Program-made: the position numbers and the translations under genes
Assembly (NCBI GenBank): GCA_025359915.1
Contig: JANYDE010000010.1
Coordinates: 1-53,797, forward strand
Direction of reading: 5' to 3'
DNA: 53,797 bases
Origin: Chamaesiphon sp. 336R_metabinner_41
GTDB lineage: Bacteria; Cyanobacteriota; Cyanobacteriia; Cyanobacteriales; Chamaesiphonaceae
Shown here: positions 30,939 to 48,296 of the stretch, in pieces
Numbering within the stretch: position 1 is the first letter of the stretch
How the letters are laid out: each line of letters begins with the position of its first letter
The notes under the pieces: model-generated
Seen by the model: the letters and a program-made list of their open reading frames with translations, nothing else
Databases searched by the model: none
What the model was told of the DNA's origin: nothing

Positions 30939-30946
30939 GTAGATTA

Positions 30947-30974
30947 GTTGATAGTTGATAGTTGATAGTTGATA
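30947..30974. repeat. STRR heptamer GTTGATA x4 upstream of ccmO
   Basis: Four exact head-to-tail copies sit in the ccmO leader, occupying the ribosome-binding region. The same unit (complement TATCAAC) recurs at about 9990-10006 and 31617-31637. Confidence 0.95.
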
Positions 30975-31076
30975 GTTAAAAATCTAGTCAATTTTCGACT
31001 ACCAACTTGCTACAGTCAATCTTTTGATTCGATCGATCTTCCAGCAAAAAGACTACCCAAAAGCTATTACTAGTGA

Positions 31077-31424
31077 CTAGCTAATACGACCTTCAACTTG
31101 GTCGCGGAATTCTTGGACTTCTTCAGTATAACCAATTGGCAGAATTCGCTCAACGTTGGGATGGGGACGAGGAATGATTACCCAAGATTCGAGGGTACCA
31201 CCATAGACTTTCTCAACTACCTCTACACCAGCCGCCATTGCCTGTTTGACCTCAGAAACGTCTCCACGCACGTTAACGGTAAATCTAGCACTACCAGCCC
31301 GCAGGTAGCCCACTAAGGTGACACGTCCAGCCTTGAGCATAGCATCAGCAGCAGCCAAGACAGCCGGAAATCCTTTGGTTTCGATCGAACCAACCGCCTG
31401 TTGAGAACTCAATGAATCAGCCAT
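31077..31424 (-). CDS. ccmK4: Carboxysome shell protein CcmK4
   Basis: This is a 115-residue single-domain BMC protein. The sequence [51 protein letters not shown] is typical of CcmK4: LRAGSARF rather than the EKIGSGRV of CcmK1/K2. CcmK4 is a minor shell paralogue that forms heterohexamers with CcmK3 and tunes shell permeability (established in other cyanobacteria). ccmK3 lies upstream on the same strand, separated by 217 nt of repeats. An AAGGAA ribosome-binding site lies upstream of the ATG. In most beta-cyanobacteria ccmK3-ccmK4 is a satellite locus; here it is inside the main cluster. Confidence 0.92.
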
Positions 31425-31641
31425 TAAAATATATTCCTTGTAATAATAAATTATTCGTTCGCGTAGCGTCTCTAGTTGAGTGTGTTGGGTTTCATTCTTC
31501 TGCTTGGTGCGCTGTCTTGAAAAGGTGCTCTACTTGGGGAAACCCCAAGACCGCACTTTTCGCTAAACCGTCGGGGAACCCGACGAGCGCGCATCCGCAA
31601 CCCAACCTACAGATCTATCAACTATCAACTATCAACTAATT
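31425..31641. repeat. Repeat-packed spacer between ccmK3 and ccmK4
   Basis: Within 217 nt there are: a GCGTAGCG REP fragment (about 31450-31460); GTTGGGTTT (about 31480) and its inverted partner AACCCAAC (about 31601-31608); the 51-nt dispersed repeat (31514-31564, hairpin CTTGGGG-AAA-CCCCAAG); a CGTCGGG-GAA-CCCGACG hairpin (about 31569-31585); and three TATCAAC heptamers (31617-31637). These hairpins may reduce read-through from ccmK3 into ccmK4 and ccmO. Confidence 0.85.
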
Positions 31642-31965
31642 TCACACCCAAAATTCTTCAGATTCTGTTGTATATTGCATCGGCATGACGCTATCTAGGT
31701 TTCCGGTTGGATGAGGAACGATATAGTGACTGACTAAAGCACCTTTTTTGGTAGCTTCACAAGCCAAAACACCAGCCGCAACAGCTTGATTCACTTCGGA
31801 TACTGGACCGCGAATCGAGATCATAAACTCGGCGCGTTCTGCCAAACCATAGTAAACCAATGTGACATTCCCAGCTTTGAGCATCGCATCAGCAGCAGCT
31901 AACACAGGCGGAAATCCATCGGTTTGAATCGTCCCGACTGCTTGTCTGGAACTTCGAGTTGCCAT
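31642..31965 (-). CDS. ccmK3: Carboxysome shell protein CcmK3
   Basis: This is a 107-residue single BMC protein. [53 protein letters not shown] matches CcmK3: the VYYxLAER stretch replaces the [10 protein letters not shown] pore-side sequence of CcmK1/K2. CcmK3 does not form stable homohexamers in other species but assembles with CcmK4. A strong GGAGGA ribosome-binding site precedes the ATG. The gene starts 101 nt after the mcdB stop, so it is probably expressed with mcdAB. Confidence 0.92.
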   Translation of the reverse strand: MATRSSRQAVGTIQTDGFPPVLAAADAMLKAGNVTLVYYGLAERAEFMISIRGPVSEVNQAVAAGVLACEATKKGALVSHYIVPHPTGNLDSVMPMQYTTESEEFWV

Positions 31966-32066
31966 TGAAAAATATCCTCCTGCTCGATCGACTAATAACC
32001 TTTAAAATAAGCTTAGAGAGGAAGACAGCGATAATAACTGAGATCGTCTCTAGCCGTTACATTTTT

Positions 32067-32477
32067 TTAGTCCAACCAACCGATATCAGTGTTATTCCGA
32101 CGGCGAAGTGTTTCTTCACGGGACTGAGTAGGACGAGCCGTCAGGGATGCGTGAGAAGTATCTTTCTTTACAATCGCTGTGGTAGCTTTAGCTTTAGCTG
32201 GAGCTGCTGCTGGTTGTTCTGACAATTTTACAATCATTGCCTTAGCATCATTCAACTCTTTCATCAAGGCATCAAATTTCTGCTGTTGAAGTTTTGCTTC
32301 CTTCTCTTGAGCAGCTTTGGCTTGAGCGTCGTCGTTGGTTGGAGGTGTCATATTCGTGGTGGTTATAGGAGTAGGCGTTGGACTGGGTGCGGTAGTCTCC
32401 CGTGTGGGGATTACTAATGGTTGCTGCATTTCCTGCCGCAACACATCAGATGCTGATGTTTTTTTCTTGACAGTCAT
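32067..32477 (-). CDS. mcdB: McdB-like carboxysome positioning protein
   Basis: McdB loads onto carboxysomes and stimulates the McdA ATPase, so carboxysomes become spaced along the nucleoid. The protein (136 residues from the ATG at 32477) has the expected layout: a basic N-terminus (TVKKKTSASDVLRQEM), a Thr/Pro-rich disordered stretch (about 25-50), a Gln/Glu/Lys-rich coiled coil (about 52-90), an Ala/Lys linker and a conserved end IGWLD. The Trp is three residues from the C-terminus, in line with the invariant C-terminal tryptophan of McdB proteins. A TTG at 32489 would overlap mcdA; the ATG is preferred. Identification rests on context and layout, as primary sequence is weakly conserved. 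Confidence 0.85.
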   Translation of the reverse strand: MTVKKKTSASDVLRQEMQQPLVIPTRETTAPSPTPTPITTTNMTPPTNDDAQAKAAQEKEAKLQQQKFDALMKELNDAKAMIVKLSEQPAAAPAKAKATTAIVKKDTSHASLTARPTQSREETLRRRNNTDIGWLD

Positions 32478-32479
32478 AT

Positions 32480-33139
32480 TTAGTTCCAATCTTTCCAGAT
32501 TTCATTGACAACACAACGGTAATCAGCGGCTGCGGGTGCGGCTGCGATCCCTTTACACTGACTAATTGGCAATCCTGACATTGCAGCACGTTCGTGAATT
32601 TTCAAATTCCTGATTACTGTATAATAAACCGGAATCTGACACTGCAATAAGGTTTGTTGGGCTTCTTGCGCTTCTCTCAAACCGCGAGAATTTACCTTAG
32701 TCAGTAAGACGCGATGGCTAATCTGGGACGGAATCACCACCTGTCTCACCGTGCGAATCAATGCGGCTAGATCCATTGGTGCGGGAGGAGTTGGCAACAG
32801 CAAGTAGTCTGCTACGGGCATAATCGCCTCGTAAGCCGCAGAATCGAGCGCAGGCGGCATATCTACAACCACGATGTCGTAATCTGCCCACTGTGCCCGA
32901 TTCACACCCTTTAAGTCAGCCAGTGCGGTAGTCTCAAAGCCCAAATCTCGACCTTCAGACTGCTTTACCCACCAACTCGCCGAGCCTTGGGAATCGGCAT
33001 CGACTAGTAGTACCCGATGCTGTTCGCCAAAGATGGCGGCGATATTAATGGCGGTTGTCGTTTTCCCCACACCGCCTTTACCATTCAATACGACGAGAAC
33101 TTTGGTAGATTTGAGTTTTGGTAGTGCTGTTTTTGGCAT
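32480..33139 (-). CDS. mcdA: McdA-like ParA ATPase for carboxysome positioning
   Basis: McdA is a ParA-family ATPase that coats the nucleoid and moves or spaces carboxysomes together with McdB. The product (219 residues) has the deviant Walker A box NGKGGVGKTTTA, including the signature lysine Lys21 and Lys26. VLLVDADSQGSASWW and the Walker B-like DIVVVDMPPALDS follow. The signature lysine is the mark of the so-called Type 2 McdA, whereas Type 1 proteins lack it. The open frame extends back into ccmN to 33295, but the ATG at 33139 (MPKTALPKLKSTK) is the proper start, 4 nt after the ccmN stop. mcdB follows with almost no gap. Confidence 0.9.
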   Translation of the reverse strand: MPKTALPKLKSTKVLVVLNGKGGVGKTTTAINIAAIFGEQHRVLLVDADSQGSASWWVKQSEGRDLGFETTALADLKGVNRAQWADYDIVVVDMPPALDSAAYEAIMPVADYLLLPTPPAPMDLAALIRTVRQVVIPSQISHRVLLTKVNSRGLREAQEAQQTLLQCQIPVYYTVIRNLKIHERAAMSGLPISQCKGIAAAPAAADYRCVVNEIWKDWN

Positions 33140-33143
33140 GATT

Positions 33144-33803
33144 TCAACCATTGGGGAAAAGCTGGCGTTTAAGCCTGTCGAAACTAGCACGTCCAGCGAC
33201 ATATTCGTTCGAGCGATGTTCGATTTCAACCGTTTCTTCGACATACCCACCCTCAAAGGGAATCGGTGGGGCTTCTGGCTGGTAAGTACTCTCAACAGGT
33301 GGCGGCGGTTCCACGATGGGTGCTTTCACCGTTGAGGTATCCCACGCATCACTGGTATCCCAGAGATCGGGAGGAGCGGAAGCATCTACTGGATCTGGCT
33401 CTGCAACTGGAGTGGGTACATCCAGTGTTTCCACCACAGATACTTCACCCCGACTGCTATCACCCAAGATTGAATGAGTAGGGACGACATCCCCATCCTC
33501 AATTCGTGGATTGACCACCGTCGATCCCGCGCCAATACAGACATTTCGCTCGATCGATCCAGTCCCGACAATCAGCACCCCGCGACCGATACACACTCCC
33601 GCCCCAATGTCAATATCTCCACCCGCTGCATGAACGATCGTTCCAGCACCGATACATACCCCCGCCCCGATCGTAATCCGACTATTCTCCTCGGCTTGGA
33701 GTAATACCCCAGGCGCGATGGCCGCAGTCGGATCGATCGAGACATTGCCATCAAGATGGACGGGTACTACCTCCCTGGATACTGATCGGAATTTGGTAAG
33801 CAT
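33144..33803 (-). CDS. ccmN: Carboxysome assembly protein CcmN
   Basis: CcmN links the Rubisco-CcmM core to the CcmK shell. The 219-residue protein has an N-terminal left-handed beta-helix of hexapeptide repeats (about 20-115: IAPGVLL, ITIGAGVCIGAG, IDIGAGVCIGRGVLI, IERNVCIGAGSTV). A Pro/Asp-rich disordered linker follows (about 125-195). The C-terminal amphipathic encapsulation peptide (about 201-218, VAGRASFDRLKRQLFPN) recruits CcmK shell proteins. Both functional ends are intact. In the usual operon ccmN follows ccmM; here it follows the SSUL-only gene. mcdA begins 4 nt beyond its stop, implying translational coupling. Confidence 0.93.
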   Translation of the reverse strand: MLTKFRSVSREVVPVHLDGNVSIDPTAAIAPGVLLQAEENSRITIGAGVCIGAGTIVHAAGGDIDIGAGVCIGRGVLIVGTGSIERNVCIGAGSTVVNPRIEDGDVVPTHSILGDSSRGEVSVVETLDVPTPVAEPDPVDASAPPDLWDTSDAWDTSTVKAPIVEPPPPVESTYQPEAPPIPFEGGYVEETVEIEHRSNEYVAGRASFDRLKRQLFPNG

Positions 33804-33823
33804 GGATGGGAGTTGCTCTGGAA

Positions 33824-33877
33824 AATCCCCTCCGAGGAGGGGTGCCCGTAGGGCGGGGTGGGTAGATCTACGCAGCT
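33824..33877. repeat. CCCCTCC-GA-GGAGGGG hairpin element before ccmN
   Basis: A perfect 7-bp stem (33827-33833 / 33836-33842) with a 2-nt spacer is followed by GGGCGGGGTGGGTAGATCTACG. It lies in the 139-nt gap between the SSUL-only gene and ccmN. It belongs to the same CCCTCCCC/AGATCT element family as 22593, 36299 and 53497. Confidence 0.75.
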
Positions 33878-33942
33878 AATCAAATCAAATAAACCCAACT
33901 GTTTACTAGTAACTTTTTGCTGTTAGTCGATCGTGTTAACGT

Positions 33943-34902
33943 CTAAGGGCGTTGGATGATTTCTTCGTGAACGCGACGTTTCGCTTTCTTATCGACTCCA
34001 ATCAACCGCACGTACTCACCCTCGTGATCGCTCAGACAAGCTTCGAGTTCCGAAATCGCATCTTGAATCCGAGTAGCCGAAACTGGCTTACAAGTGTGCC
34101 AAGAACTGCTCCGAAAGCGACGTAGGTCGGCATGTTCGGTACTGATTTGGTAGCTGTTTTCCAGCAGACGACGAACCGATGCGACGATTTCCGAACTGAG
34201 GGAAGTTTTGACACTACCAGCCGCAGTTGCGGTACCAAATGAACTATTGAAGGAGGTAGCACTAGAACCGCCTGTACTGAGCGTAACTGGCTCACCTGGC
34301 TTGTGAATCAAAAGTTCGGTGACACGGCGACGAGCAGTCGTATCGATGCCAATCAGACGAACATAGTCATTTTCATGTTCGGCGACCAAATTGGTTAATA
34401 ATGAGATCGCTTCATTTTCCCGACCACCTTGATAAGATGGACCACTAGTCCAAGATGTAGCGCGATAGCGACGAGCGTCCGCAAACTCAGTCCCAATTCT
34501 GAAGCCCTGATTTAGTAGTTGTTTGACGATTTGAGCGACATCGCCGCCGCCACCGTTACCGCCACCATTACCATTGCTTGCAGCGGCAACACTTCCACCA
34601 CCAGCACTCTTCGACTTACTGACTTGAGTCACCGCACCGTCAGGACGCTGAATCATCAGTTCTAATGTCCGCGTGCGCGTTTTGGTATCGACACCGAGGA
34701 TTTGGACATACTTACCTTGATTCTCGTCCAGCACAGCCGTAATGCTTGCTAATACAGCACTTTCACCACCTTGGGCGATGGGCGCACTAGTCCAAGAACC
34801 ACTACGGAAACGACGAGCATCAGCGTATTCCAAACCGACGCGATTGCCTTGGCTTAATAAACGACGAATTTCTTGGCGGACGCTATCACTAATATTACTC
34901 AT
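33943..34902 (-). CDS. Stand-alone triple SSUL-domain protein (CcmM35-like scaffold)
   Basis: The 319-residue protein consists only of three Rubisco small-subunit-like (SSUL) domains at about 3-88, 119-203 and 233-319. Each has the signature YADARRFRSGSWTS / FADARRYRATSWTS / HADLRRFRSSSWHT and the end VDxKxRxRxxELxIQRP. Gly/Asn- and Ser/Thr-rich linkers join them. There is no carbonic-anhydrase domain. This is the domain plan of CcmM35, which other cyanobacteria make by internal translation of ccmM and which condenses Rubisco through multivalent binding. Here it has its own gene between ccmL and ccmN, in addition to full-length ccmM. Its only cysteines are Cys271 and Cys289 in SSUL3, 18 residues apart. 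I infer a dedicated Rubisco condensing scaffold. Confidence 0.9.
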   Translation of the reverse strand: MSNISDSVRQEIRRLLSQGNRVGLEYADARRFRSGSWTSAPIAQGGESAVLASITAVLDENQGKYVQILGVDTKTRTRTLELMIQRPDGAVTQVSKSKSAGGGSVAAASNGNGGGNGGGGDVAQIVKQLLNQGFRIGTEFADARRYRATSWTSGPSYQGGRENEAISLLTNLVAEHENDYVRLIGIDTTARRRVTELLIHKPGEPVTLSTGGSSATSFNSSFGTATAAGSVKTSLSSEIVASVRRLLENSYQISTEHADLRRFRSSSWHTCKPVSATRIQDAISELEACLSDHEGEYVRLIGVDKKAKRRVHEEIIQRP

Positions 34903-34949
34903 ATCTTCGATTCCGAATTAAATCATTAATAACTTCAATAAATAATTTC

Positions 34950-35249
34950 TTATCGCGCATCTCGTTTGCTGTATGTCAAATCATTACCCACCGCAACTGT
35001 ATCCACGATCGCCACAATTAGCGCATCGACGGGATAATGGTCTTTACTGGAGACTTGACGCGCAGCACTACCCAGACTCACTAAAACTACTTCTGTTAAA
35101 CCTGCGCCCACACAGTCGGCGGCGACCTCATATTCTGGCAGGTCATTACCTGCCGCATCTAGCATTTGCACGAGCAAAAACTTAGTTCCAGTCAAACTCG
35201 GCTCTTTGTGGGTACTGACCACAGTACCCAATACTTTTGCTAGCTTCAT
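34950..35249 (-). CDS. ccmL: Carboxysome shell vertex protein CcmL
   Basis: CcmL is a 99-residue BMC-P protein that forms the pentamers closing the shell vertices. It matches the family in length and motifs: MKLAKVLGTVVSTHKEPSLTGTKFLLVQ, YEVAADCVGAGLTEVVLVSLGSAAR and PVDALIVAIVDTV. The gene lies 7 nt after ccmK1, so the two are co-transcribed. The SSUL-only gene starts 47 nt after its stop. No unusual residues were seen. Confidence 0.96.
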   Translation of the reverse strand: MKLAKVLGTVVSTHKEPSLTGTKFLLVQMLDAAGNDLPEYEVAADCVGAGLTEVVLVSLGSAARQVSSKDHYPVDALIVAIVDTVAVGNDLTYSKRDAR

Positions 35250-35256
35250 TTAGCTA

Positions 35257-35607
35257 TTAGCGGCGGCTACCCATTGCCAAAGGACCTGGACCATTTAAAC
35301 TGTCGCGGAACTTCTCTACATCTTCGGTGTAGTTCATAGGCAATACGTACTCTAAGTTCTCGTGCGGACGAGCAATGATGTGAGTGGACAATACTTGTCC
35401 GCCATTAACGCGCTTAACAGACTCAACACCTGCGGCTACGGAAGCTTGAACTTCAGATACATCACCACGAACGATTACAGTTACGCGACCGCTACCAATT
35501 TTTTCGTAGCCAACTAAAGTGACACGAGCGGCTTTGACCATAGCATCAGCAGCTTCAACAACTGCGGGAAAGCCCAAGGTTTCAATCATTCCAACTGCAA
35601 TAGACAT
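35257..35607 (-). CDS. ccmK1: Carboxysome major shell protein CcmK1
   Basis: This 116-residue BMC-H protein forms the hexameric facets of the shell. It is nearly identical to the neighbouring CcmK2 over residues 1-101 (differences at 11 and 71 only). It then carries a longer tail ([15 protein letters not shown]), the usual distinction of CcmK1. Motifs are [22 protein letters not shown] and the pore loop EKIGSGRV. It is 53 nt from ccmK2 and 7 nt from ccmL, clearly within one transcript. Confidence 0.95.
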
Positions 35608-35660
35608 TATTCAGTGACTCCTAAATTTTCTAGTTAATCTAATTATTTAGCAAAAGTAGC

Positions 35661-35969
35661 CTAAACGCGGAATTTTTCTACGTCTTCGGTGTAGTTCATA
35701 GGCAATACGTACTCCAGGTTCTCGTGAGGACGTGCAATGATGTGAGTCGATAAAACTTCGCCACCATTGACGCGTTTCACGGATTCTACACCTGCTGCCA
35801 CAGAAGCTTGTACTTCAGAGACATCACCACGGACAATGACAGTTACCCGACCGCTGCCGATTTTTTCGTAGCCAACTAATGTGACCCGTGCGGCTTTGAC
35901 CATGGCATCAGCAGCTTCCACAACAGCAGGAAAACCTTTGGTTTCAATCATTCCCACGGCAATAGACAT
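35661..35969 (-). CDS. ccmK2: Carboxysome major shell protein CcmK2
   Basis: The 102-residue BMC-H protein is the canonical main shell hexamer subunit of beta-carboxysomes. [50 protein letters not shown] is the expected sequence, with the KIGS pore loop. An AAGGA ribosome-binding site lies 8-9 nt before the ATG. A 429-nt spacer separates it from ccmM upstream, so a promoter for the K2-K1-L-SSUL-N run is likely there. Confidence 0.96.
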
Positions 35970-36398
35970 ATATTTTTCGTCCTTAGAGTAATTTTGTAGT
36001 CAACGACTTGCGCGTGTATTCGCGCCCAATCGATATTTATATAGAACACACCAATTTTTCTATAGATTTTATCTATGAAAAACCGAATACTTATATATTC
36101 GCTAAGGTCAAGCATAGACTGATACGTGACGCTTTGGCAATATAAGCAACAATTTTATTTTGTTAATTCACACATCAGAATATTTTATGTGCGAGACTGG
36201 GGATCGACAGTGCTTAGGATTAGCTAATTTCGATCGATTTCCACTAAAAATTCCTTCCTTAAAAGCTACGGTGTATACACAAGTTATTTGAGTTGCTGCG
36301 GAGATCTTTACCCCACCCCAGCCCTCCCCTTTCTAAGGGGAGGGAGTAAGAGCAAGCTTTTATACACGGTAGCTCCTTAAAGGAGGGATTTTCTCCGC
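35970..36398. promoter_or_regulatory. Spacer between ccmM and ccmK2: probable ccmK2 promoter and hairpins
   Basis: This 429-nt gap holds no gene. Near ccmK2, on the minus strand, are an ATAGAT-AAA-ATCTAT hairpin (36061-36077), an AT-rich TCTATATAAAT block (about 36036-36046) that could be a -10 region, and GCGCG...CGCGC (about 36010-36028). Nearer ccmM are a CTCCTT-A-AAGGAG hairpin (36373-36385) and a CTCCCC...GGGGAG hairpin (about 36326-36345) of the composite repeat family. They may terminate ccmM transcripts. Confidence 0.5.
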
Positions 36399-38072
36399 CT
36401 ATTTCACTGGACGGTGAACGACTTTCTCCGCCACACGCTTCTTGGCTTTTTGGTCTACGCCGATGACGCGGACGTAGGACTTTTGGCGATCCCGAACGAT
36501 CAATTCCAGGGATCTGACGATTTCGGCGGCGTTGTTACCAGCGACTTGTCCGCCAGTTTCCCAGGCGTTGCTCTTGTAGCGACGTTCGTCAGCAAATTCG
36601 GTGAAAATTGCACAACCTTGGGTGGCTAATCGAGAGATAGTTTCGATCGCATCTAGGGCTAAAACCGAGCTGGTGGTGTTGGGCTGAGTGGTCTTGGTGC
36701 CAGTGCTGAAGCTACTGTTGGAACCATTATTGCTGCTGCTATTGGAGCTACCAGATTGACCTGGACGATGGACGATTTGCTCGGAGACCCGACGCTTGGC
36801 AACAGGATCTACACCGATCGCGCGAACATAGTCGTTAGGATAGTTAGCAATACAGTCAGAAATTGCGGCTAAAATTGCACTTTCGGATTGAGATTCAATG
36901 GCGTAGCTATTCCAAGAGCTAGTTTGGAAGCGACGTTTGTCGGCACGTTCGATCGCGATTTTACAGCCTTGGTTGATGAGTTGACGAACAATTGTGGTTA
37001 GATCGGCACTCGCACCGCTGGAGCTAGCAGGGCTTACAGCATGGCTCGAACTAGGTTGACTGAATGAAGTGCTGACGCTGCGAACTTCAGACTGCCCTGG
37101 GCTGTCTGTGGGGCGTTGGATGATGGTTTCGAGTACCCGTCGTTTGGCATTGGTATCGATCCCGATCAACCGAACATATTCGCCGCTATGGTCTTGTAAG
37201 CAACTTTCGAGCTGCTTTAATAATTCACCTTCATTGTTGGTATTAAAAGACGCGCAGCTAGTCCAAGAACTGGTCTGAAAGCGACGTTTGTTGGCATGTT
37301 CAGTACCAACTTGGTATCCTTGGGCAATCAGGCTGCGGACGCTACTAATCACGTCTGGGTGGAGACGGGAATTCTGGCTATTTTTTTGTTGCAGTGGCAG
37401 ATCTAGGGTGGTGGGACCAGCGACAGATGAAGCTGCTGCATTAGCACTCTGGATATCTGCCACACACACAACATCATCGACACAGTGATAGCCAGAACGT
37501 AAAGAATCGTTAATGCTAATGATATGAGCGGCGAATTTCTTATCGTCAGGCTGTACTTCTGACAAGCGATCTGCTTGCTGCTGACTGGTAATGATTGCGC
37601 CTGAAGGCACATATTTTCCAGGCGGAATTTCGACATCCTGAATCAGGGCGTGCATCATCACCACACAACCATGACCGACCTTAGCATTAAATACCGTGGA
37701 ACGAAAGCCAATAAAGCAGTCGTTGCCCACATATGCAGGGCCGTGAATCAGTGCCATGTGGGTAATAGAACTGTTATTACCAATCCAGACAGAGTAAGGC
37801 GTACCATCATCGCCAGTCACTCGCCCTTGCTCTAGTCCGTGGATGACTGCGCCATCTTGAATATTAGTATTCGATCCGATCGAAAAAGGATTGCCTTCAT
37901 CGGCGCGAATCGATATCCCTGGCGCGATCATCACATTTTCACCGATCCGCACATCACCGATGATGTTGGAAAAAGCGTGAACGTATGCGGTATGGTGAAT
38001 CTTTGGCTCTGCCAAGTTCTGCGACCACGGTGTGGGCGGGGCGGCGGTAGCATTACTCCGAACTACTGTCAT
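36399..38072 (-). CDS. ccmM: Carboxysome scaffold CcmM (gamma-carbonic anhydrase + 3 SSUL domains)
   Basis: CcmM organises Rubisco and recruits CcmN and carbonic anhydrase. The 557-residue protein has an N-terminal gamma-CA left-handed helix (about 20-205). Its zinc ligands are His78, His105 and His110, and it has a Cys197/Cys203 pair equivalent in spacing to the activating disulfide of active CcmM carbonic anhydrases, so it is probably enzymatically active. Three SSUL domains follow (about 239-322, 357-437, 470-555). SSUL1 carries Cys273 and Cys291, 18 apart as in redox-switched SSUL1 of Synechococcus. No ATG lies between the two parts; only GTG codons near 201-204 could start a short form, and no Shine-Dalgarno is evident. 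The gene is displaced to upstream of ccmK2. Confidence 0.95.
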
Positions 38073-38448: not shown

Positions 38449-38474
38449 CTAAACCACTAAACCACTAAACCACT
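38447..38474. repeat. STRR octamer CACTAAAC x3.5
   Basis: This is the reverse complement of the AGTGGTTT octamer at 3423. It overlaps the 3' end of the large kinase gene and encodes its last residues (WFSGLVV) and stop. Confidence 0.95.
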
Positions 38475-41400
38475 GATCTTGGCTGAGTGGGAAGACAAAT
38501 GGCAGATCTCCACAGGGTAAATCGACGGTAAATCGACTACCAACACCGATCTCGCTGGTGACACCGACTCTCCCACCGTGCAAATCGACTAGCTCTCGGA
38601 TGAGATTCAATCCCAATCCAGTACCCTGGGCGGTGCGGCTCAAGGCACTATCAATTTGGACAAAGGGTTTAAATAATCGATCGAGATTTTCTGATTCGAT
38701 GCCGATTCCGTTATCAGTTACTGCAATTTGGATCCAAGCATGATTCTCAGCGACGACATGTGCCACTTCCAAGACGATTAGACCATTTTCTGGCGTGAAT
38801 TTGACAGCATTGCTAAGTAAATTAATCAAAACTTGACAAATCCGGCGTTCATCTACTAGTAAATCTGGCAGATTGGGAGGAATATTTATGACTATTTGAA
38901 TTCGTTTTTTCAGAGCCTGCGGTTCGACAAATAAGCTGCTGGTGTGGCAGAGCTGACTGATATTAGTTAGGGTGCAATCTAACTCTAGTTTTCCAGCTTC
39001 CATTTTTGCCAGATCGAGAATATCATCGATCAATCCTAGCAAATGTGTGCCACTACGATCGATTACTTGGAGGCAGCGGAGTTGTTGTGGATTGAGATCT
39101 CCATATACTTGTTCGATTAAACCTTCCGACATCCCCAAAATTGCATTTAGCGGTGTACGGAGTTCATGACTCATGTTATTGAAGAAACTTGTTTTGGTGC
39201 GCTCGGCTGATTCAGCTAATTCTTTAGCTGCTTTGAGTTCGATCGTGCGTTCTTCAACTCGTTGTTCAAGCAGGTCAACTGATGATTGTAATTCGGTATA
39301 GAGCTTGGCATTTTCAATGCTGATTGCTGCTTGGGCGACGAGAACTTGGAGTGTTTCGACTCGATCGTCAGTAAAGGATCCAGTCGTAAGTTGATTTTCC
39401 AAATATAAGATGCCAATCAATTTACCTCGATCTATAATCGGCAGACATAAAACGCTTTTGGGTTGATTTTCTTGGAGATAAGCATCTCCGGCAAAATCGA
39501 TAGATTGAGTCGCATCAACTAACAGAATTGGCTCTAAGCTATTTAGCACCTTATTGATCAAATTAATCGCAACATCGGTACTCAGATCGAAAGAAGTTGG
39601 TGATAAGAACTGGGCTTGCGTTCCAAGTGTTACTCTAGCGACTACTTGTAAATTTGTTTCTGCTTTAAGCAGTAAAATACACTTATCAGCTCCACCATTT
39701 GTAATAATAATATCTAAGAGATTGACAATCGTCTGATCGAGATTTACTTCTTGAGAAATAGTTTGGGAAGCTTTGAGCAAGCTAGCAAAATCCAACGATT
39801 TTGGGTCACAACTCACAGAACTTCCAATCGCATTCTTGTTTGTGCCAACAACATTTATGGAAGCTGAATCTAGGATAGACGAAAGGAGTTGAGGATAGAG
39901 TGCGGCTAAATGTTCTATCTTTGCGATCGCACCCCATCGATCGTAACAGTAATATGCCTCTATCATATAAACCTGGGCTATTTGTTCTTTGCCCCAGCCC
40001 AGATAAAACTTCGCGGCTAATTCGTTTGCTAATGCTTCTTCATGGACAAATTGATGTTTCTTGGCACCAGCAATTGCTCGATCGTAATGTTCAATAGCTG
40101 CGGCTTTCTTTCCGAATACCCGTTGCTTTTCAGCTTCAATCAAATCCCATTTGTGGAGATGATTCATTGGGGTCTCTTGTGCCCATTTATAGACTTCAGC
40201 TTGATAAATTTCGACTTGGGACAAACTTAAAAATCGATCCTGTTCGGGCTGATTGTCAGAAAGTGTTGTGCGCGTCAAAGCTGCATAAAAATTGAACATA
40301 GGCACCAAGATCATGCCTGTTACTGCTGGTAAATACGGTTCGCATTGCGTAATATTTTCTAGAGCAGCCTTGTACTCATCAAATAAATAAGCCAGCATCA
40401 ATTTATAGCTGTAGACAAAAGCGATAGCAATAAATTCACCATCTTGATGATGTCTAGGAATCATCATGTTTTCATCGTAAGCAGTGCCAATTAAACAATC
40501 TGGTTGACTTTCTCTCACCATTAAATTTATTGCTACCTGTCGCTTCATCGATAGATAAGCCTGAGCCGAATATTGTTTGAGCCGTTCTAACTCAATAGCA
40601 TATAGTGATATTTCCCGTTCCCAAGTATGCAGTTCAACTCCGCAGATCAGGTTTGCATCAAAGTAACAAGAACTGCTATAGCCCATAGCGAGAAGATCCC
40701 CAGATTCTCTGCTAGCGGTGTAAGCACATTTCAATATTGAGATAGTAGATCGAATTGATTCTCGGCGATGCTGAATCCAAGTAGCAAATAAAAATGAAAT
40801 TCTACCCTGAAACTCTCTAGCATTCAAAGAATCGACTAACGCCAGTGCTATTTTACCAAAACGATATCCCGTCTCAGGCTCTCCAAACAGAGCACTCAGC
40901 ACAAAGCCACAATTAACATAGCCCATGGCGGATGCAGGTATATTACCAAACTGGATTGACAGACTCACCATTTTAAAACTCAAAATGGGTAATAGGCTCG
41001 GTTTCACATTAAAAATAGGTGCGCTCAAATCGGCTAGCAGCTCCATTGTTAGCTGTGCCTGAAGATTCTCCAGCGGAGAGGCTATTGCTCCGCTACCGCC
41101 AATGCTCATTGTAGGTAAATTCAACAGATCTTCAATTTGTTGATGTTGAAGTTTGCGCTTGAGAATATCCAGTGCCTCGGCTGTCTTAGCTTCATTGGGT
41201 GTGGTGGGAAGTTCAAATCCCAATTGAGAAAGTACTATTGCGCCTCTGGAGATCGCTTCCTCCCCTCTACCGTTGGCGGTAAGAGCAGCGATTTGGATTC
41301 TGTAGATACTAACTGTCTCCAGAATCGTTCGTGCCGATCGCAATACTAGCATTGAAATCTCTTCCATTCGCTCTAGATTGCCTTCCAAATAGGCAGCTTC

Positions 41401-43839
41401 AGCAGCAGCAACATGGAGATCTAACGTTAACTGATATTGGGTTTCCCAACAGTTATCATCAAGGAGTTCGATCCCTGTGTGGAAATAAAGATTTGCCGCA
41501 GCATAGGCAGTAGATTTCCTTGCTTTTTTACCCGCATTAAAGTTAAGATCGACAATTCTTTGTCGATCGCATGGATCGGTAATTAGTTCCTTTGCGATAT
41601 TCAAATGCCCGACAATATCAAACAATCTTTCTTCTCTGACAATTTCAGAAAAATTTTGCTGGAGCAACTGTCCAATTCTGAGATGGGTTACTTGTTTTTT
41701 GCGATCGGGAATCAGGGAGTAAGCGGCTTGTTGAACGCGATCGTGTAGAAAGCGATAAACTGGATTAGCCTCGGTATTCAGTCCAGATTGGTGAGTTGAT
41801 TGGGTGAAAAATTTATATATTTCTGTTGTTGGAATCAATAAATTTTCTTGCAATCCGCTCCACAATACCGCCGCCGTGTCCTCAGGAGATCGATCCAAAA
41901 CAATTGCTAAGGTATGTAGATCGAATTGTGCCCCAATACAAGCGGCTAAAGCGATCGCTGATTGAGTTGCTGGTGGCAACTTTTGCAACTGTAATGCCAT
42001 AAATTCCACCACATCATCGGTTACAGCCAAAGCTCGAACTCGAACAAGATCGCAACTCCACCCGCCGACACCAATATTATTACTCAGACGATCGAAACTA
42101 ATTAGTCCATCTTCATATAATGCTTTGAGAAATTGAGTCGTAAAAAAGGGATTCCCTTTGGTTTTGAGTGCCACCAATTCAGCTAGAGGTTGAGCTAACA
42201 ATAGATCGCATTTTAATGTATCTGCAACTAACTGATTCAAATTTTGTCGATCGAGCAATTTTAGAGATATCTGATTAACTACTGTTCCAGTCTTAACAAT
42301 TTCATCGATCGCCAACATTGATGGATGAATTAGCGAAACTTCATTATCCCGATAAGCTCCTAATACCAGCAAATATGCTGTATCCTGCATAAGTAATTGC
42401 AGTAAGTTTAAAGACGCTGAATCAGCCCATTGTAGATCGTCGAGAAATAATACCAGTGGATGTGCGGCGGTGGCAAACAAGCGCGTAAATTTCTGGATCA
42501 GCAGATTGAATCGCTGTTGTCCGGCACTGCCGGATAATTCGGCGACTGGAGATTGCTGTCCAATAATCCGTTCTAATTCGGGAATAACATCAATCAATAC
42601 CTGCCCATTTTCCCCGACAGCCGCCAGAATTTGTGTTTTCCAGATTTGCAGTTGTGACTCTGATTCCGATCGCAATTGCCCCATCAAATCGCGGAAGGCT
42701 TGCACAAAAGCTGAAAATGGAATGTTGCGCTGAAATTGGTCGTACTTGCCCTTGAGGAAGTAGCCTCGCTGCCGCACAATCGGTTTATGAACTTCTTGAA
42801 TGACCACAGTTTTGCCAATCCCCGAACAGCCAGCTACCAGCACCAGCTCAGTTTTACCTTGACTGACTCGTTCAAAAGCATTGAGTAACATTTGGACTTC
42901 TGGCTCTCGTCCATACAGTTTTTCGGGAATGAGAAAACGGTCGCTCCGATCCTGCTCTCCCAATCCAAATAATTGAATTTTTCCGGTTGTTTGTAATTGA
43001 GCTAAACAAATTTCTAGATCGTGTTTTAATCCCAGTGCATTTTGATAACGATCTTCAGCATTCTTTGCCATCAATTTGCTGACGATCTGCGAAATTGCTA
43101 GGGGAATATTTGGCAATAGTTGATGGATTGGAATTGGTTGTTTGGCAAGATGACAATGTACCAATTCTAGTGGATCGTTGGAAATAAACGGTAATTGACC
43201 TGTTAGTAGTTGATAACAGGTCACACCCAAAGCATAATAATCGCTGCGATAGTCGATGCCCCGATTCATCCGTCCAGTTTGTTCGGGGGCAATATATGCT
43301 AATGTCCCTTCCAGCATATTAGCATTTTTGATTTCTTGAGTTTCTTTTGGCAATCGCGAAGAAATACTAAAATCAATCAGCTTTATTTGCAGTGTCTCTG
43401 GATTAATTAGAACATTATCTGGTTTGATATCTTTGTGAATTACCTGATGAATATACAATTCTTCCAGTGCCTGAGCAATTTGCACGGCAATCTGGAGAAA
43501 GGTGGTTAATGTTTGGGTATTCTGCCCCAAAGATTCCACTCGATCTAAGTAAGCTTGCAGTGAAATACTACCGCAATCCTCTAGGATCAGAGCGTAGGAG
43601 TTTTGGTAGGTTTCTAATGCCAGCGTTTTGATGATATTGGGTAGATCGAAATCTTTGCCAATATCATATTTATGTCTGAACTTGAGCAGTTCATTGGAGC
43701 TGGGAAATGGATTCCGTAGAATTTCGATTGTCACTGGATATAAATCGGACTCTCGGATTCCTCGATAGATGAGAGTCCGAGTGCCCGCATAAATCTCTTC
43801 AGAGATCCTATATCCAGGTATGCACACGATCTTTTTCAT
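38449..43839 (-). CDS. Ser/Thr kinase - AAA ATPase - GAF - histidine kinase multidomain sensor
   Basis: The 1796-residue signalling protein has the HstK-type layout. It has an N-terminal Hanks kinase domain (about 8-280), an AAA_16/STAND ATPase (about 305-560; Walker A GCSGIGKTVV, Walker B LVLFLDDLQWAD), a long helical TPR-like region (about 640-1330), a GAF domain (about 1375-1515), a HisKA domain with His1558 in SHELRTP, and a HATPase domain ending GTGLGLNLIREL. The Ser/Thr kinase domain has HKDIKPDNVL, but the VAIK lysine is Glu39 (VTIEIL) and DFG reads DFS. The STK part may therefore be inactive or act only as a binding module. No response regulator is adjacent. The C-terminal eight residues come from a tandem repeat. 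Confidence 0.9.
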   Translation of the reverse strand: MKKIVCIPGYRISEEIYAGTRTLIYRGIRESDLYPVTIEILRNPFPSSNELLKFRHKYDIGKDFDLPNIIKTLALETYQNSYALILEDCGSISLQAYLDRVESLGQNTQTLTTFLQIAVQIAQALEELYIHQVIHKDIKPDNVLINPETLQIKLIDFSISSRLPKETQEIKNANMLEGTLAYIAPEQTGRMNRGIDYRSDYYALGVTCYQLLTGQLPFISNDPLELVHCHLAKQPIPIHQLLPNIPLAISQIVSKLMAKNAEDRYQNALGLKHDLEICLAQLQTTGKIQLFGLGEQDRSDRFLIPEKLYGREPEVQMLLNAFERVSQGKTELVLVAGCSGIGKTVVIQEVHKPIVRQRGYFLKGKYDQFQRNIPFSAFVQAFRDLMGQLRSESESQLQIWKTQILAAVGENGQVLIDVIPELERIIGQQSPVAELSGSAGQQRFNLLIQKFTRLFATAAHPLVLFLDDLQWADSASLNLLQLLMQDTAYLLVLGAYRDNEVSLIHPSMLAIDEIVKTGTVVNQISLKLLDRQNLNQLVADTLKCDLLLAQPLAELVALKTKGNPFFTTQFLKALYEDGLISFDRLSNNIGVGGWSCDLVRVRALAVTDDVVEFMALQLQKLPPATQSAIALAACIGAQFDLHTLAIVLDRSPEDTAAVLWSGLQENLLIPTTEIYKFFTQSTHQSGLNTEANPVYRFLHDRVQQAAYSLIPDRKKQVTHLRIGQLLQQNFSEIVREERLFDIVGHLNIAKELITDPCDRQRIVDLNFNAGKKARKSTAYAAANLYFHTGIELLDDNCWETQYQLTLDLHVAAAEAAYLEGNLERMEEISMLVLRSARTILETVSIYRIQIAALTANGRGEEAISRGAIVLSQLGFELPTTPNEAKTAEALDILKRKLQHQQIEDLLNLPTMSIGGSGAIASPLENLQAQLTMELLADLSAPIFNVKPSLLPILSFKMVSLSIQFGNIPASAMGYVNCGFVLSALFGEPETGYRFGKIALALVDSLNAREFQGRISFLFATWIQHRRESIRSTISILKCAYTASRESGDLLAMGYSSSCYFDANLICGVELHTWEREISLYAIELERLKQYSAQAYLSMKRQVAINLMVRESQPDCLIGTAYDENMMIPRHHQDGEFIAIAFVYSYKLMLAYLFDEYKAALENITQCEPYLPAVTGMILVPMFNFYAALTRTTLSDNQPEQDRFLSLSQVEIYQAEVYKWAQETPMNHLHKWDLIEAEKQRVFGKKAAAIEHYDRAIAGAKKHQFVHEEALANELAAKFYLGWGKEQIAQVYMIEAYYCYDRWGAIAKIEHLAALYPQLLSSILDSASINVVGTNKNAIGSSVSCDPKSLDFASLLKASQTISQEVNLDQTIVNLLDIIITNGGADKCILLLKAETNLQVVARVTLGTQAQFLSPTSFDLSTDVAINLINKVLNSLEPILLVDATQSIDFAGDAYLQENQPKSVLCLPIIDRGKLIGILYLENQLTTGSFTDDRVETLQVLVAQAAISIENAKLYTELQSSVDLLEQRVEERTIELKAAKELAESAERTKTSFFNNMSHELRTPLNAILGMSEGLIEQVYGDLNPQQLRCLQVIDRSGTHLLGLIDDILDLAKMEAGKLELDCTLTNISQLCHTSSLFVEPQALKKRIQIVINIPPNLPDLLVDERRICQVLINLLSNAVKFTPENGLIVLEVAHVVAENHAWIQIAVTDNGIGIESENLDRLFKPFVQIDSALSRTAQGTGLGLNLIRELVDLHGGRVGVTSEIGVGSRFTVDLPCGDLPFVFPLSQDQWFSGLVV

Positions 43840-44030: not shown

Positions 44031-45947
44031 TTATCGGATAAAGCATACCCGATACATTCCGTTGCAAAAATCCCACAGTGCATCAGAAGTCATTGCTAAT
44101 CCTTGCAACACCGCAGCCCGATCTCCATTTGAGTCGTCGATCTGGCGGGCTAGGGTCATTACTTCATCAACATGGTCAGCCTCTAACTCTCCGTGGAGAT
44201 AGAACCATGAGGCAACAGAACTATCCAATGTCGATCTAGCTAACTCTTTGTTTACGATCTCGTCTCTTTGCTCACCACGAATCTCCATGAGAATAGCTGC
44301 GCCTACACCTACATAAGGATTGGGATTGGAGTATAATGCATCCAACCCTTGGCTCAATTTAAAACCAGGTGCTAACATTTCTGTTGTGATAATTTCTGGT
44401 TTATGTGGTTCAAGACCTAGTATAAATCGATCAAATATTTCTTTGTGAATATGAGATACATTTCCATTTCCTAGTTCTTCATTCAACTGTTTTGCCAAAA
44501 CACAACGAACTAGATCGTTATCAATGTGAGCAATAACAAGCGCAAGTCTTCGGGTGAAATGGGCGACAATTCCCTCCTGAAAATTGGCAAATAACAACCA
44601 CATATTGTTCAGATTAGCAGGTTCTCGCCGCAATCTTTGAAAGAAAGGATGGTCTTCAACCGAGTTAACTTTATAGTATAAAACCATCTCTCCAAGAGAT
44701 GGTAAAGATCGCGCTGATTTTGCAGTAACTGTTGTGATAGGAGGTCGAACTGTGTTGACTTCTGGATTGATGTAAATACCGATCCGCCGTTGTTGCTGCT
44801 CTCGACGGAGAGAAGTATAAGAATGCATCCCCACTCCTGCTTCTAGCGGTCGTCGTGCCGTCAAAGATTGGATTGCTGACTGATATATAGAGATGGGCAG
44901 ACTGGATTGGATCAAGTATAGATCGAGTCGATCGCAGACAGCTCGATCGTCAGTCGCATAGTTAGAAATCGGGAGGTATAGCGTTCCACTTGAGGGAATA
45001 GCATCGTCCCCTTCGATGAGAGAAAAACAGGTAATAGCTGACTTGGCGAAGAATGAGGTTTGACCTGGTGCCATTGCTTGGCAGAATTCGATCGCATCTC
45101 CAGCGACATAGTTTCGAGCTGCACTGAGGGCTGATTCTAGCTCTGCGGGGGTAGCATCATGGTGACGGAGATAGACTTTGACTCGTGCGTGAGTATCCGC
45201 AGCGAGATCGAGGGAAAAGTAGACAAATTCGTCTTTGTCGGGGCCGCGTTGAGCTGCTGTCTCGGCTAATGTCGGCCAAGCATGGGTGAAACCGAGTCGG
45301 ACTAAAGATTCTTCGACAACTGCGGCAGAACCATTCGGGGATTGGGATTGGGGGTTGAGATAAAGTTTGAAGGCTGGTTCTTTGTCGGGGTAGAAGCAGA
45401 CAGCGTGCCACATCGAGAATTTGGCTGCTGAATTTGTGGGCGTAAATAGGTCGGAAATCTGCTCGAATCGATCGAGACTCACATGATATTTGGCTGCTAA
45501 ATATTTATTTAGTTCTAGTCCGGCTTGCCAATTGGACTGGAGATCGGCATTGCTACCTTGAGCTTCTATTAGGACGCGGAGTTCGACTTTATCGGGGTCT
45601 AAAGCTAGGGAAAACTCAAACGGGGCAAAATCATCGGAAACATCCGATTGCCATCCAGAGATGTCTCCAACGGCTTTGTCGCCCCAGGAGGTGGTGATGC
45701 CGCGAAAGATCTCGGTAATTTGTTCGATCTTACCGCTCAGTCCTACGGCATCACAGAGTGCTGTTAATTTTTCGACTCCACATTCAACATAAGTTTGGGT
45801 GGGGATTAATTTTTCGGGGTCGAAGCCAACTTGAGCCTGACGTTCGATGGAAGGTCGATTTTCTAACCCAAATTCTGTGTCACTTGAGCGATTTTCAGAT
45901 TGATCGATCGACTCTGATACTGTAGAGATACTTTCAGAATTAGTCAT
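44031..45947 (-). CDS. Putative DMATS-type aromatic prenyltransferase fused to heme-oxygenase-like diiron oxidase
   Basis: The product has 638 residues from the ATG at 45947 (a GTG at 45959 is possible). Residues about 45-398 show the DMATS (ABBA-barrel) pattern: Glu111 in PFEFS as indole-side acid, Arg124, KLYLNP (Lys194, Tyr196), RVKVYLRH (Arg255, Lys257, Tyr259), LYLPI (Tyr324) and GIYINP. These are the diphosphate-binding Arg/Lys and the tyrosine shield. Residues about 416-638 match the heme-oxygenase-like iron enzymes: Glu458, EELGNGNVSHIH (Glu491, His501), Glu555 and H-x3-E-x2-H (His585, Glu589, His592). I infer that an aromatic substrate, perhaps Trp or Tyr derived, is prenylated and oxidised. 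Substrate and product are unknown. The gene stands alone between two sensor kinases. Confidence 0.72.
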   Translation of the reverse strand: MTNSESISTVSESIDQSENRSSDTEFGLENRPSIERQAQVGFDPEKLIPTQTYVECGVEKLTALCDAVGLSGKIEQITEIFRGITTSWGDKAVGDISGWQSDVSDDFAPFEFSLALDPDKVELRVLIEAQGSNADLQSNWQAGLELNKYLAAKYHVSLDRFEQISDLFTPTNSAAKFSMWHAVCFYPDKEPAFKLYLNPQSQSPNGSAAVVEESLVRLGFTHAWPTLAETAAQRGPDKDEFVYFSLDLAADTHARVKVYLRHHDATPAELESALSAARNYVAGDAIEFCQAMAPGQTSFFAKSAITCFSLIEGDDAIPSSGTLYLPISNYATDDRAVCDRLDLYLIQSSLPISIYQSAIQSLTARRPLEAGVGMHSYTSLRREQQQRRIGIYINPEVNTVRPPITTVTAKSARSLPSLGEMVLYYKVNSVEDHPFFQRLRREPANLNNMWLLFANFQEGIVAHFTRRLALVIAHIDNDLVRCVLAKQLNEELGNGNVSHIHKEIFDRFILGLEPHKPEIITTEMLAPGFKLSQGLDALYSNPNPYVGVGAAILMEIRGEQRDEIVNKELARSTLDSSVASWFYLHGELEADHVDEVMTLARQIDDSNGDRAAVLQGLAMTSDALWDFCNGMYRVCFIR

Positions 45948-46400: not shown

Positions 46401-48296
46401 CTAAGTGCCCTGCAATATTGTTTCGATGGTGGAGACCAGTTGCCCTAATTTAACTGGTTTGGTCACATATTGATTCGCGCCAGCATCTAAGCATTTTTGC
46501 CGATCTGTGGGCATCGTCAGAGCTGTCAAGGCGATAATCGGGGTAGTTGCGTATGCCGGAATTTGGCGAATGCGTTGAGTCGCTTCCAATCCATCCATTC
46601 GAGGCATCTGAATGTCCATCAGAATGATGTCGGGACAGCTCATCAGAGTCGGATCTTTGGCGCATTCCTTCAGCAGTAGCACTGCTTGTTCGCCGTCTCC
46701 AGCTTCAGCCAGACGATAACCGCGACTGCTCAAATAGCATGTCATCGTTTCCATATTTGCATCGTTATCTTCCACAACCAAGATTAATGCTTTGGGCTTA
46801 ATCTTGGGCATGTTTTCCAGATCTGGTGTGAGGGGATAGACTGATGGCAATAATGATGGCGGGACAACAATCTCTGCGCTCGGATCGAATGGCAACATTA
46901 CGGTAAAGCAACTACCCCGATTTACGGTACTCTCGACGGCAACATTGCCGCCATGCAATTCGACGATCTGCTTAACTAAGGATAATCCTAGTCCTGTTCC
47001 GGCATATTGGCGATCGAGAGTACTATCGACTTGGACAAATGACTGAAATAATTTACCGATATTTTCAGGCGCAATCCCAATTCCAGTATCGACGATCGAG
47101 AAGGCAATCCGCCGCTGAGATATTCCAGATCTGCCAGTCCCCCCGTCTCCCAGTCTGTCTTGAAAAGGTGCTCTCGCATGGGAAACCCCAAGACCGCACT
47201 TTTCGCTCCCAGTCCCCCCATCCCCCCATCCATCAACAATTCGGACATCCAAGCTAATGCTCCCCCCTTCTGGCGTGAATTTGACCGCATTGCTGAGTAA
47301 ATCTACCAGGACTTGGCGGCAACGACGATCGTCTACTTGAATATTTAGCTGTTTGAGATATTCGGGGAGTTGCAGTTTGACGCTAATTTGCTGTTTGAGG
47401 GCAAGTTTTTCGATCGAGAGTAGACTACTTTGACAGAGAGATTGAATCGGGACATTTGTCAATTCGAGCTGGAATTCATTGGCAGCAATGTTAGAAAGAT
47501 CGAGAAGATCGTTAATTAGGTCTAGCAGTTGTCTACCACTCTTTTCGATCGTTGAAATTGAATGATACTGTCGATCGTTAATTGAGCCAAAAGCTGATGC
47601 TTGCAATGCTTCGGACATCCCCAAGATAGCATTTAGGGGAGTGCGAAGCTCGTGATTCATACTTGCTAGAAATTCATCTTTGAGTCGAGTTGCACGGGTA
47701 AGTTCTTGGGTGGAGATCGCTAATTGTCGATCGCGATCTTGCAATTGCGATTGAGCTTGCTCTCGTTCCCTGATTGCTGCCTGCAATTGCGCTGATAAGC
47801 TTGCCGATTGAATCGCGCTGTGCCGAATATTGACGGCTAAAGCCTCAGCTAAATTAGCTTGGAGACTTGCCTGAGTCAAGATCCCCATCGGATAATGTCG
47901 ATCGTCAACAACTGGTAGGTGGCTAATCTGATATTGTTGGAGTAACTCGATCGCTACAAACAGATCTGTAAAAGCTGATGCTGGCAGTGTAATTAGATGA
48001 GATGTCATCACATCACCGACCGTTAGTTGATCCAAATCCCCTTGTTTGGCAATAAGTTGCACAACATCTCGTTGCGTCATCATCCCCATCAATAGATCGT
48101 CCTCAACCACTAGAATACAACTAGATCCCGTCTGACTTTGGATTTGATTCGATCGATCCTTGCCATTTGAGCACGCTAAAACTCGATGAACACCACTCAT
48201 CCGAGCGACGACATCAATAACTCTTGTGTCGGGGGACACGAGGATCGCAGGTAGCAATGCTGAGAGCAGTTCCGACGGGGTTGAAAGATTCAGCAT
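46401..48296 (-). CDS. Hybrid histidine kinase: CBS pair - HisKA - HATPase - receiver
   Basis: This is a 631-residue cytoplasmic sensor kinase. Two CBS domains (about 20-150; GMMTQRDVVQLI, HLPVVDDRHYPMGILTQASL) probably bind adenine nucleotides. A coiled coil (about 160-205) leads to HisKA with His215 (NHELRTP). HATPase motifs are Asn336 (LSNAVKF), Asp403 (VDTGIGI) and the GTGLGLSL lid. The receiver domain has Glu509/Asp510, Asp561 (ILMDIQMP) and Lys613. All catalytic residues are present. Residues about 355-394 (GWGDGGTG...RSGIS) are an insertion within the HATPase domain encoded by a dispersed repeat and C-rich STRRs, in frame. No cognate regulator gene is next to it. Confidence 0.9.
   Translation of the reverse strand: MLNLSTPSELLSALLPAILVSPDTRVIDVVARMSGVHRVLACSNGKDRSNQIQSQTGSSCILVVEDDLLMGMMTQRDVVQLIAKQGDLDQLTVGDVMTSHLITLPASAFTDLFVAIELLQQYQISHLPVVDDRHYPMGILTQASLQANLAEALAVNIRHSAIQSASLSAQLQAAIREREQAQSQLQDRDRQLAISTQELTRATRLKDEFLASMNHELRTPLNAILGMSEALQASAFGSINDRQYHSISTIEKSGRQLLDLINDLLDLSNIAANEFQLELTNVPIQSLCQSSLLSIEKLALKQQISVKLQLPEYLKQLNIQVDDRRCRQVLVDLLSNAVKFTPEGGSISLDVRIVDGWGDGGTGSEKCGLGVSHARAPFQDRLGDGGTGRSGISQRRIAFSIVDTGIGIAPENIGKLFQSFVQVDSTLDRQYAGTGLGLSLVKQIVELHGGNVAVESTVNRGSCFTVMLPFDPSAEIVVPPSLLPSVYPLTPDLENMPKIKPKALILVVEDNDANMETMTCYLSSRGYRLAEAGDGEQAVLLLKECAKDPTLMSCPDIILMDIQMPRMDGLEATQRIRQIPAYATTPIIALTALTMPTDRQKCLDAGANQYVTKPVKLGQLVSTIETILQGT
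47157..47207. repeat. 51-nt dispersed repeat family, copy 3 (inside a gene)
   Basis: This is the same element as 31514-31564 and (inverted) 27826-27874, with the hairpin TGGG-AAACCCCA core. It is flanked on both sides by CAGTCCCCCC-type STRR units. It lies inside the HATPase domain coding region of the hybrid kinase, and the total insertion keeps the frame. Confidence 0.95.

Follow-up and report, generated by a model that had tools for sequence, protein, structure and literature searches.

A single open reading frame in a cyanobacterial genome joins a DMATS-type aromatic prenyltransferase and a haem-oxygenase-like dimetal oxidase (HDO) in one chain, and the fusion is real. It lies in a stretch of 53,797 nucleotides from Chamaesiphon sp. 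336R_metabinner_41 (GenBank assembly GCA_025359915.1, contig JANYDE010000010.1), hereafter called the window. Both protein families are known; their architecture in one chain is undescribed within the literature that we searched. Judged from its sequence, the protein on balance appears to be a bifunctional biosynthetic enzyme that would prenylate tryptophan or indole and then oxidise the amino-acid part by Fe2/O2 chemistry. The gene and its parts are:

44031..45947, minus strand: DMATS-HDO fusion gene, 638 aa (open reading frame and translation, Pfam, orthologues)
44736..45947, minus strand: N-terminal part, residues 1-404, a variable leader (about residues 1-50) and the DMATS-type aromatic prenyltransferase domain (PF11991, TIGR03429, PDB 6zry, alignment)
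44034..44735, minus strand: C-terminal part, residues 405-638, a linker and the HDO domain (PF14518, BesC/CADD profile match, structure comparison of a low-confidence model)
44032..44054, minus strand: terminator-like stem-loop over the last codons of the fusion gene (weak)

The coordinates given in the first-pass annotation of the window are right, and the gene sits on the minus strand. It starts at an ATG at 45947 and ends with the stop codon at 44033-44031, and an in-frame GTG at 45959 is an alternative start that would give 642 aa. Terminator-like sites in the scanned region show a weak excess over shuffling (4 observed, 2.1 expected), and promoter-like sites are no more frequent than chance (6 found, 6.6 expected). 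We reject an assembly or frameshift artefact, since five other assemblies have the full-length frame open: the fusion is found, free of internal stops, in four further Chamaesiphon genomes, of which one is assembled into 3 contigs, and in a single genome from a different family.

Full-length fusions are present in five of the nine Chamaesiphon genomes (the window's own, G002, G003, G004 and G006) and, at 34% identity, in a genome from another family of the same order (G063); identity to the window copy is 34-66% in the five other genomes. The rarity expected in the first-pass annotation is borne out, with the fusion in 6 of the 388 genomes of the order sample. In the phylum sample of 386 genomes the fusion is confined to the window's own genome, and one other genome, G393, has a solo DMATS; PF11991 occurs in just two of 386 genomes of the phylum. 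These counts come from overlapping samples and a limited initial screen that could overlook rare copies. The four fusion-less Chamaesiphon genomes are 77, 82, 89 and 99% complete, so that absence is well supported in G005 alone; in another of them, G001, the kinase orthologue lies at a contig edge.

G088, G021, G070, G091 and G457 have solo relatives of the HDO half at 36-41% identity; those in G488 and G614 are more distant (30%). A second HDO-type match in G488 (C1:7560587-7561387) falls into two pieces of 40% and 27% identity in separate frames and is possibly a broken copy. Around some solo copies the gene order resembles an unassigned biosynthetic cluster: at two loci from two families (L054, 1805-8884; L053, 4046-10233) the solo HDO is followed, in similar order, by what look by eye like an FAD amine-oxidase-like gene and several others. 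In G091 (L033, 9508-19316) a solo HDO of 244 aa is followed by an abhydrolase-methyltransferase protein and, by eye, by more methyltransferase-like genes and one NRPS-like gene.

Both halves score far beyond chance in Pfam: PF11991 (Trp_DMAT) matches residues 98-276 with 51.4 bits (E 1.4e-13, cut-off 25 bits) and PF14518 (Haem_oxygenas_2) matches residues 461-623 with 60 bits (E 3.4e-16, cut-off 28.9 bits). By its matches the N-terminal half belongs to the DMATS-type aromatic prenyltransferase family. A single-sequence search of the PDB returned nine DMATS-type sequences at E 2.3e-42 to 2.9e-28, the best being 6zry (E 2.3e-42), and the solved matches include 6-dimethylallyltryptophan synthase, PriB and CymD. 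The NCBIfam model TIGR03429 gives 101.9 bits (E 4.7e-29), under its curated cut-off of 163.85, as is likewise the case for the solo DMATS of Calothrix (109 bits). The residues of note are E111, R124, K194, Y196, R255, K257, Y259, Y330 and Y392, of which E111, K194, R255, K257, Y259 and Y392 form six catalytic columns that are invariant across nine aligned rows of solo and fused DMATS; Y196 and Y330 are substituted in the Streptomyces row. We take the roles of the conserved Glu, the K-x-Y and R-x-K-x-Y motifs and the Tyr residues to be those known from FgaPT2. An AlphaFold model of the full chain, built on a four-sequence alignment (window, L016, L017 and L018, the last three being the contigs of G002-G004), reached a pLDDT of 34 and is too poor for an ABBA barrel to be read from it.

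The C-terminal half very likely carries a predicted dimetal site. A single-sequence search found no HDO in the PDB for this half, and scans of viral contigs to deepen the alignment returned no relative. When ten HDO domains, six of them fused and four solo, were combined into a profile, nine PDB matches up to E 10 came up, headed by BesC (4e-4) and followed by p-aminobenzoate synthase/CADD (0.007-0.013); neither AetD nor SznF is among the nine. E491, H501, E555, H585, E589 and H592 align to Glu, His, Glu, His, Glu/Asp and His in BesC or CADD, are invariant in the six fusions and four solo relatives, and correspond in CADD to what are presumably its metal ligands. Glu458 is present in all six fusions and, by eye, in the solo copies L048 and L049; L030-L033 and L047 have no equivalent at that place, L030 and L031 having a Glu one residue earlier. 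Glu458 may be the seventh ligand of the 3H/4C subset (SznF, RohS), in which an extra Glu is supplied by auxiliary helix 2. The residues picked out in the first-pass annotation, both those of the DMATS half (Glu111, Lys194/Tyr196, Arg255/Lys257/Tyr259) and the seven proposed HDO ligands (Glu458, Glu491, His501, Glu555, His585, Glu589 and His592), occur in the window protein without exception, and none of them varies across the six fusions aligned.

Modelled alone, the HDO half gave a weak AlphaFold model (pLDDT 51, pTM 0.51). VIA-align matched this weak model to HrmI (Z 10.9 over 169 residues at 4.5 A), FlcD (10.5), BesC (10.2), CADD (10.0-10.2) and UndA (9.3), Z values which in helical bundles may mean a common arrangement only. 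By title, the best 50 VIA-align rows are of HDO, TenA, PqqC or haem-oxygenase type, except 3bjd, which is titled as another enzyme, and the best Foldseek E value is 0.025 (CADD). These fold matches agree with the sequence result and lend it, and a putative seven-helix HO-like bundle, weak support that would not suffice by itself. A role of this half as a p-aminobenzoate synthase of the self-sacrificing CADD/PabS type, or as a lyase of the BesC type, without a link to prenylation is very improbable. BesC and CADD/pABA synthase are its nearest solved sequences, but it reaches just a small part of the curated cut-off scores (25.3 bits against 200 for the CADD/PabS family TIGR04305, 13.2 against 500 for the BesC family NF042919) and it is fused to a prenyltransferase.

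In the window the fusion gene lies between two sensory kinase genes:

38449..43839, minus strand: Ser/Thr kinase-AAA-GAF-histidine kinase, 1796 aa, downstream neighbour
46401..48296, minus strand: CBS-HisKA-HATPase-receiver hybrid kinase, 631 aa, upstream neighbour

Both are syntenic with G006 (67% and 60%), in which the counterpart of the upstream kinase is longer. Further away, at 30144-38072, the window holds genes for small proteins that by eye resemble carboxysome shell (BMC) proteins, with CcmM-like genes, as is ordinary for cyanobacteria. The gene had been described as standing alone between two sensory kinases and as possibly making a small molecule without a larger cluster. The first statement holds for the window but not for the genus, and the second is doubtful: in the four other Chamaesiphon carriers, hence in four of the five in the genus with the window as the fifth, a gene for a PLP enzyme of about 385 aa follows directly downstream on the same strand, at gaps of 16, 19, 34 and 161 bases (mechanically assigned start codons). 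Among the carriers seen, isolation of the fusion is therefore peculiar to the window genome. No close copy of the PLP gene was found in the window genome (best 24%) or in the four fusion-less genomes (best 28-29%), nor does the gap that adjoins the window gene contain a remnant of it (best chance match E 2.3).

Three of the PLP proteins are 71-73% identical to the fourth, and all four have an Aminotran_5 domain and the kynureninase C-terminal domain PF22580. The top NCBIfam family for the two copies scanned is kynureninase TIGR01814, at 109 bits against a cut-off of 246, with SufS-type cysteine desulfurase a close second. Compared with kynureninase 1qz9, the protein keeps the lysine and the arginine that we assume to bind PLP and the alpha-carboxylate, respectively. 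In G006 an O-methyltransferase gene comes after the PLP gene. The setting of the distant fusion in G063 (L028, 10876-16144) is another one: 7 bases upstream of the fusion lies the gene of an FAD oxidase whose domain is of cytokinin-dehydrogenase type and whose start resembles a TAT signal (16.5 bits, cut-off 16.7), and past it a divergent P450 gene stands on the opposite strand.

The two halves of the window protein have evolved unequally, which the first-pass annotation missed. In the DMATS half the window copy is 76-79% identical to its four sisters, which share 75% among themselves (95% in the close pair L017/L034). In the HDO half the window copy is only 46-50% identical to the sisters, which share 79-83% among themselves (93% in the close pair), and the break lies near residue 405. 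Nonsynonymous divergence follows the same pattern, with HDO-half dN of 0.42-0.46 between window and sisters, 0.10-0.13 among sisters and 0.04 in the close pair; DMATS-half dN is 0.14-0.17 (close pair 0.03). Window-sister dS approaches saturation (HDO half 1.5-2.2, DMATS half 0.9-1.3), and differences at fourfold sites (0.46-0.69 at 34-37 sites in the HDO half, 0.43-0.49 in the DMATS half) do not decide between replacement and acceleration. In the HDO tree the window groups with its sisters (support 90/92) on a branch of 0.76, and the sisters have a common stem of 0.34; in the DMATS tree, which has weak support, the window falls among the sisters without a comparable stem. The window HDO thus appears to have been either replaced or fast-evolving. 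Within the limits set by saturation, long branches and small trees, we tentatively favour replacement by a diverged relative over simple acceleration, since a long window branch alone would not yield the sisters' stem; our searches found no donor of a replacement domain.

The divergence of the window HDO half coincides with absence of the PLP gene. Its C-terminal domain could therefore be decaying after loss of the PLP partner while the prenyltransferase alone still works, a reading that we regard as quite unlikely. It would account for an HDO half at 46-50% identity to sisters that share 79-93% in this half, for an HDO dN of 0.42-0.46 where other comparisons give 0.04-0.13, for the missing PLP gene and for the unaffected DMATS half. 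Against it, the frame is intact, all seven ligand residues are kept, dN is below dS (0.42-0.46 versus 1.5-2.2), and the divergence of 0.34 on the sisters' common stem fits replacement of the HDO better than recent decay. Given the retained ligands and a dN lower than dS, the window HDO domain is probably functional.

In G393 a PatB/GntC-like PLP enzyme gene starts 9 bases after the solo DMATS, with scores below the cut-offs of those families. Among 72,556 plasmid records tblastn found 10 matches, none spanning 80% of the query; eight of the ten loci were inspected, two of them without listed genes, and plasmid gene tables are incomplete. On plasmid4 of Calothrix sp. NIES-4101 (AP018277.1) a DMATS gene of 43% identity is followed by BAZ36824, a protein homologous to AetD (PDB 8ji2, E 3e-43) that is annotated as hypothetical and has no Pfam match, and then by a flavin monooxygenase and an SDR. 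This region (L045, 7407-12042) looks like a plasmid-borne prenyl-indole, perhaps nitrile, cluster. Tryptophanase adjoins DMATS on two Streptomyces plasmids, and on one further plasmid, whose gene list includes no PLP gene, a P450 lies upstream of DMATS and an FAD oxidoreductase on the other strand. Among the plasmid loci with readable genes, an HDO-type gene was listed or found beside DMATS in Calothrix alone. The recurring, not universal, pattern is a DMATS with an enzyme for the amino-acid part.

Two further Streptomyces loci differ in their partners. On the plasmid NZ_CP030772.1 of Streptomyces sp. YIM 121038 (L046, 7971-9581) a single 536-aa frame joins a DMATS and a cupin-like part, and the gene table shows the cupin end alone; genes of aldehyde dehydrogenase, UbiD-like and aminotransferase type follow downstream. 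In Streptomyces sp. SAT1 the DMATS lies beside a PLP decarboxylase-like protein and a methyltransferase. Its class V-fold PLP gene was considered as a parallel to the kynureninase-like gene and rejected, as it scores as decarboxylase-type and has no similarity to the latter.

In the pathway that we propose, the DMATS (ABBA-type) domain would move the dimethylallyl group from DMAPP onto the indole ring of L-tryptophan or of a closely related compound, a tryptophan-like substrate being suggested by the relatives and the gene neighbours. Prenylation of tryptophan or indole is quite likely. The haem-oxygenase-like domain would build a dimetal site (Fe2, possibly Mn/Fe) from 3 His and 3-4 carboxylates and use O2 on the amino-acid end of the molecule just prenylated, N-oxygenating it and/or cleaving its side chain oxidatively. 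In view of Glu458 as a possible 3H/4C ligand, we give N-oxygenation and AetD/SktA-like side-chain cleavage about equal weight. That both steps act on one molecule is reasonably probable: the fusion has been kept at 34-66% identity in five other genomes with invariant ligands, and the linked genes encode enzymes that act on amino acids, namely the kynureninase-like gene in the genus, the PatB/GntC-like gene in G393, tryptophanase in Streptomyces and the AetD homologue in Calothrix. In the sister species the kynureninase-like PLP enzyme, and once also the O-methyltransferase, would probably finish the pathway. In the window lineage, with the PLP partner gone from the locus and the HDO replaced or fast-evolved, the product is probably unlike that of the sisters, and there the second step could be altered or absent.

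The halves could instead be fused for co-regulation only, the DMATS acting on one molecule (for example, indole or tyrosine) and the HDO on another, with the products joined later, which seems unlikely to us. Solo HDO relatives of 36-41% identity do occur in genomes without a DMATS match, which implies that a prenylated substrate is not a requirement of this HDO subfamily; solo HDOs adjoin kinase-like genes or a methyltransferase region (mostly by eye), and the sharp difference between the evolution of the window halves suggests that they are separable. However, the fusion is maintained across two cyanobacterial families, and DMATS lies beside another HDO subfamily in Calothrix and beside tryptophanase elsewhere. 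Returning to a joint function, we tentatively suggest that this could be the first polypeptide whose aromatic prenyltransferase passes its product straight to a dimetal HDO. From L-Trp, DMAPP and O2 the one chain would make a prenylated indole whose side chain has been remodelled (N-oxygenated, nitrile, skatole-like or carbonyl), with the HDO as a swappable cassette and the prenyltransferase kept.

The earlier statement that no described enzyme is known to have both domains agrees with our search of PMC full-text literature, by titles and abstract starts, which found no description of a DMATS-HDO fusion. The terms 'prenyl', 'fused' and 'fusion' have no occurrence in the HDO review PMC13108848. 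This review puts the number of functionally validated HDOs at about a dozen and counts finding the function of unassigned HDOs among the key tasks (PMC13108848). For an orphan HDO, being fused by nature to a prenyltransferase makes a prenylated aromatic amino acid the likely substrate, so that its chemistry can be tested directly. With the DMATS-AetD pair of Calothrix, the fusion hints at possible prenyl-indole pathways in cyanobacteria, a class that has received little notice. The HDO specific to the window provides a natural comparison of the domain-swap type; if the HDO is indeed a swappable cassette, as the window copy suggests, one prenyl-tryptophan would be turned into different products in related species.

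Compared with solved bacterial DMATS enzymes (6-dimethylallyltryptophan synthase 7w8u, PriB 5inj, CymD 6os3 and 6zrx-6zs0), the N-terminal 400 residues are homologous over 300-350 residues and share with them the Glu as well as the motifs K-x-Y and R-x-K-x-Y. The solved chains are 360-405 aa long, whereas the fusion adds 230 residues of HDO in the same chain. On the HDO side, BesC and CADD/PabS are the nearest solved sequences and align in the six ligand columns, but the fusion HDO half is far under the curated cut-offs of both families. The Trp nitrile synthase AetD and SktA, which are described in the 2026 review as HDOs acting on bromo-tryptophans (PMC13108848), belong to the same superfamily as the fusion HDO and are alike in the expected substrate type, a substituted Trp. 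An AetD homologue adjoins the DMATS gene in Calothrix, but AetD is of a different HDO subfamily and did not reach E 10 with the profile of ten fused and solo HDO domains. According to passages of PMC11611611, AetD has Phe48 at the place of an extra Glu that is E189 in SznF and E93 in RohS; the fusions have Glu458, its proposed equivalent. The 3H/4C subset was first seen in the N-oxygenase SznF, which, unlike other characterised HDOs, has an extra (cupin) domain, as stated in the review (PMC13108848). SznF and the fusion are hence both multi-domain chains with an HDO part, with Glu458 as a possible seventh ligand as in SznF and RohS, and they differ in the partner domain, which is a C-terminal cupin in SznF and an N-terminal prenyltransferase in the fusion.
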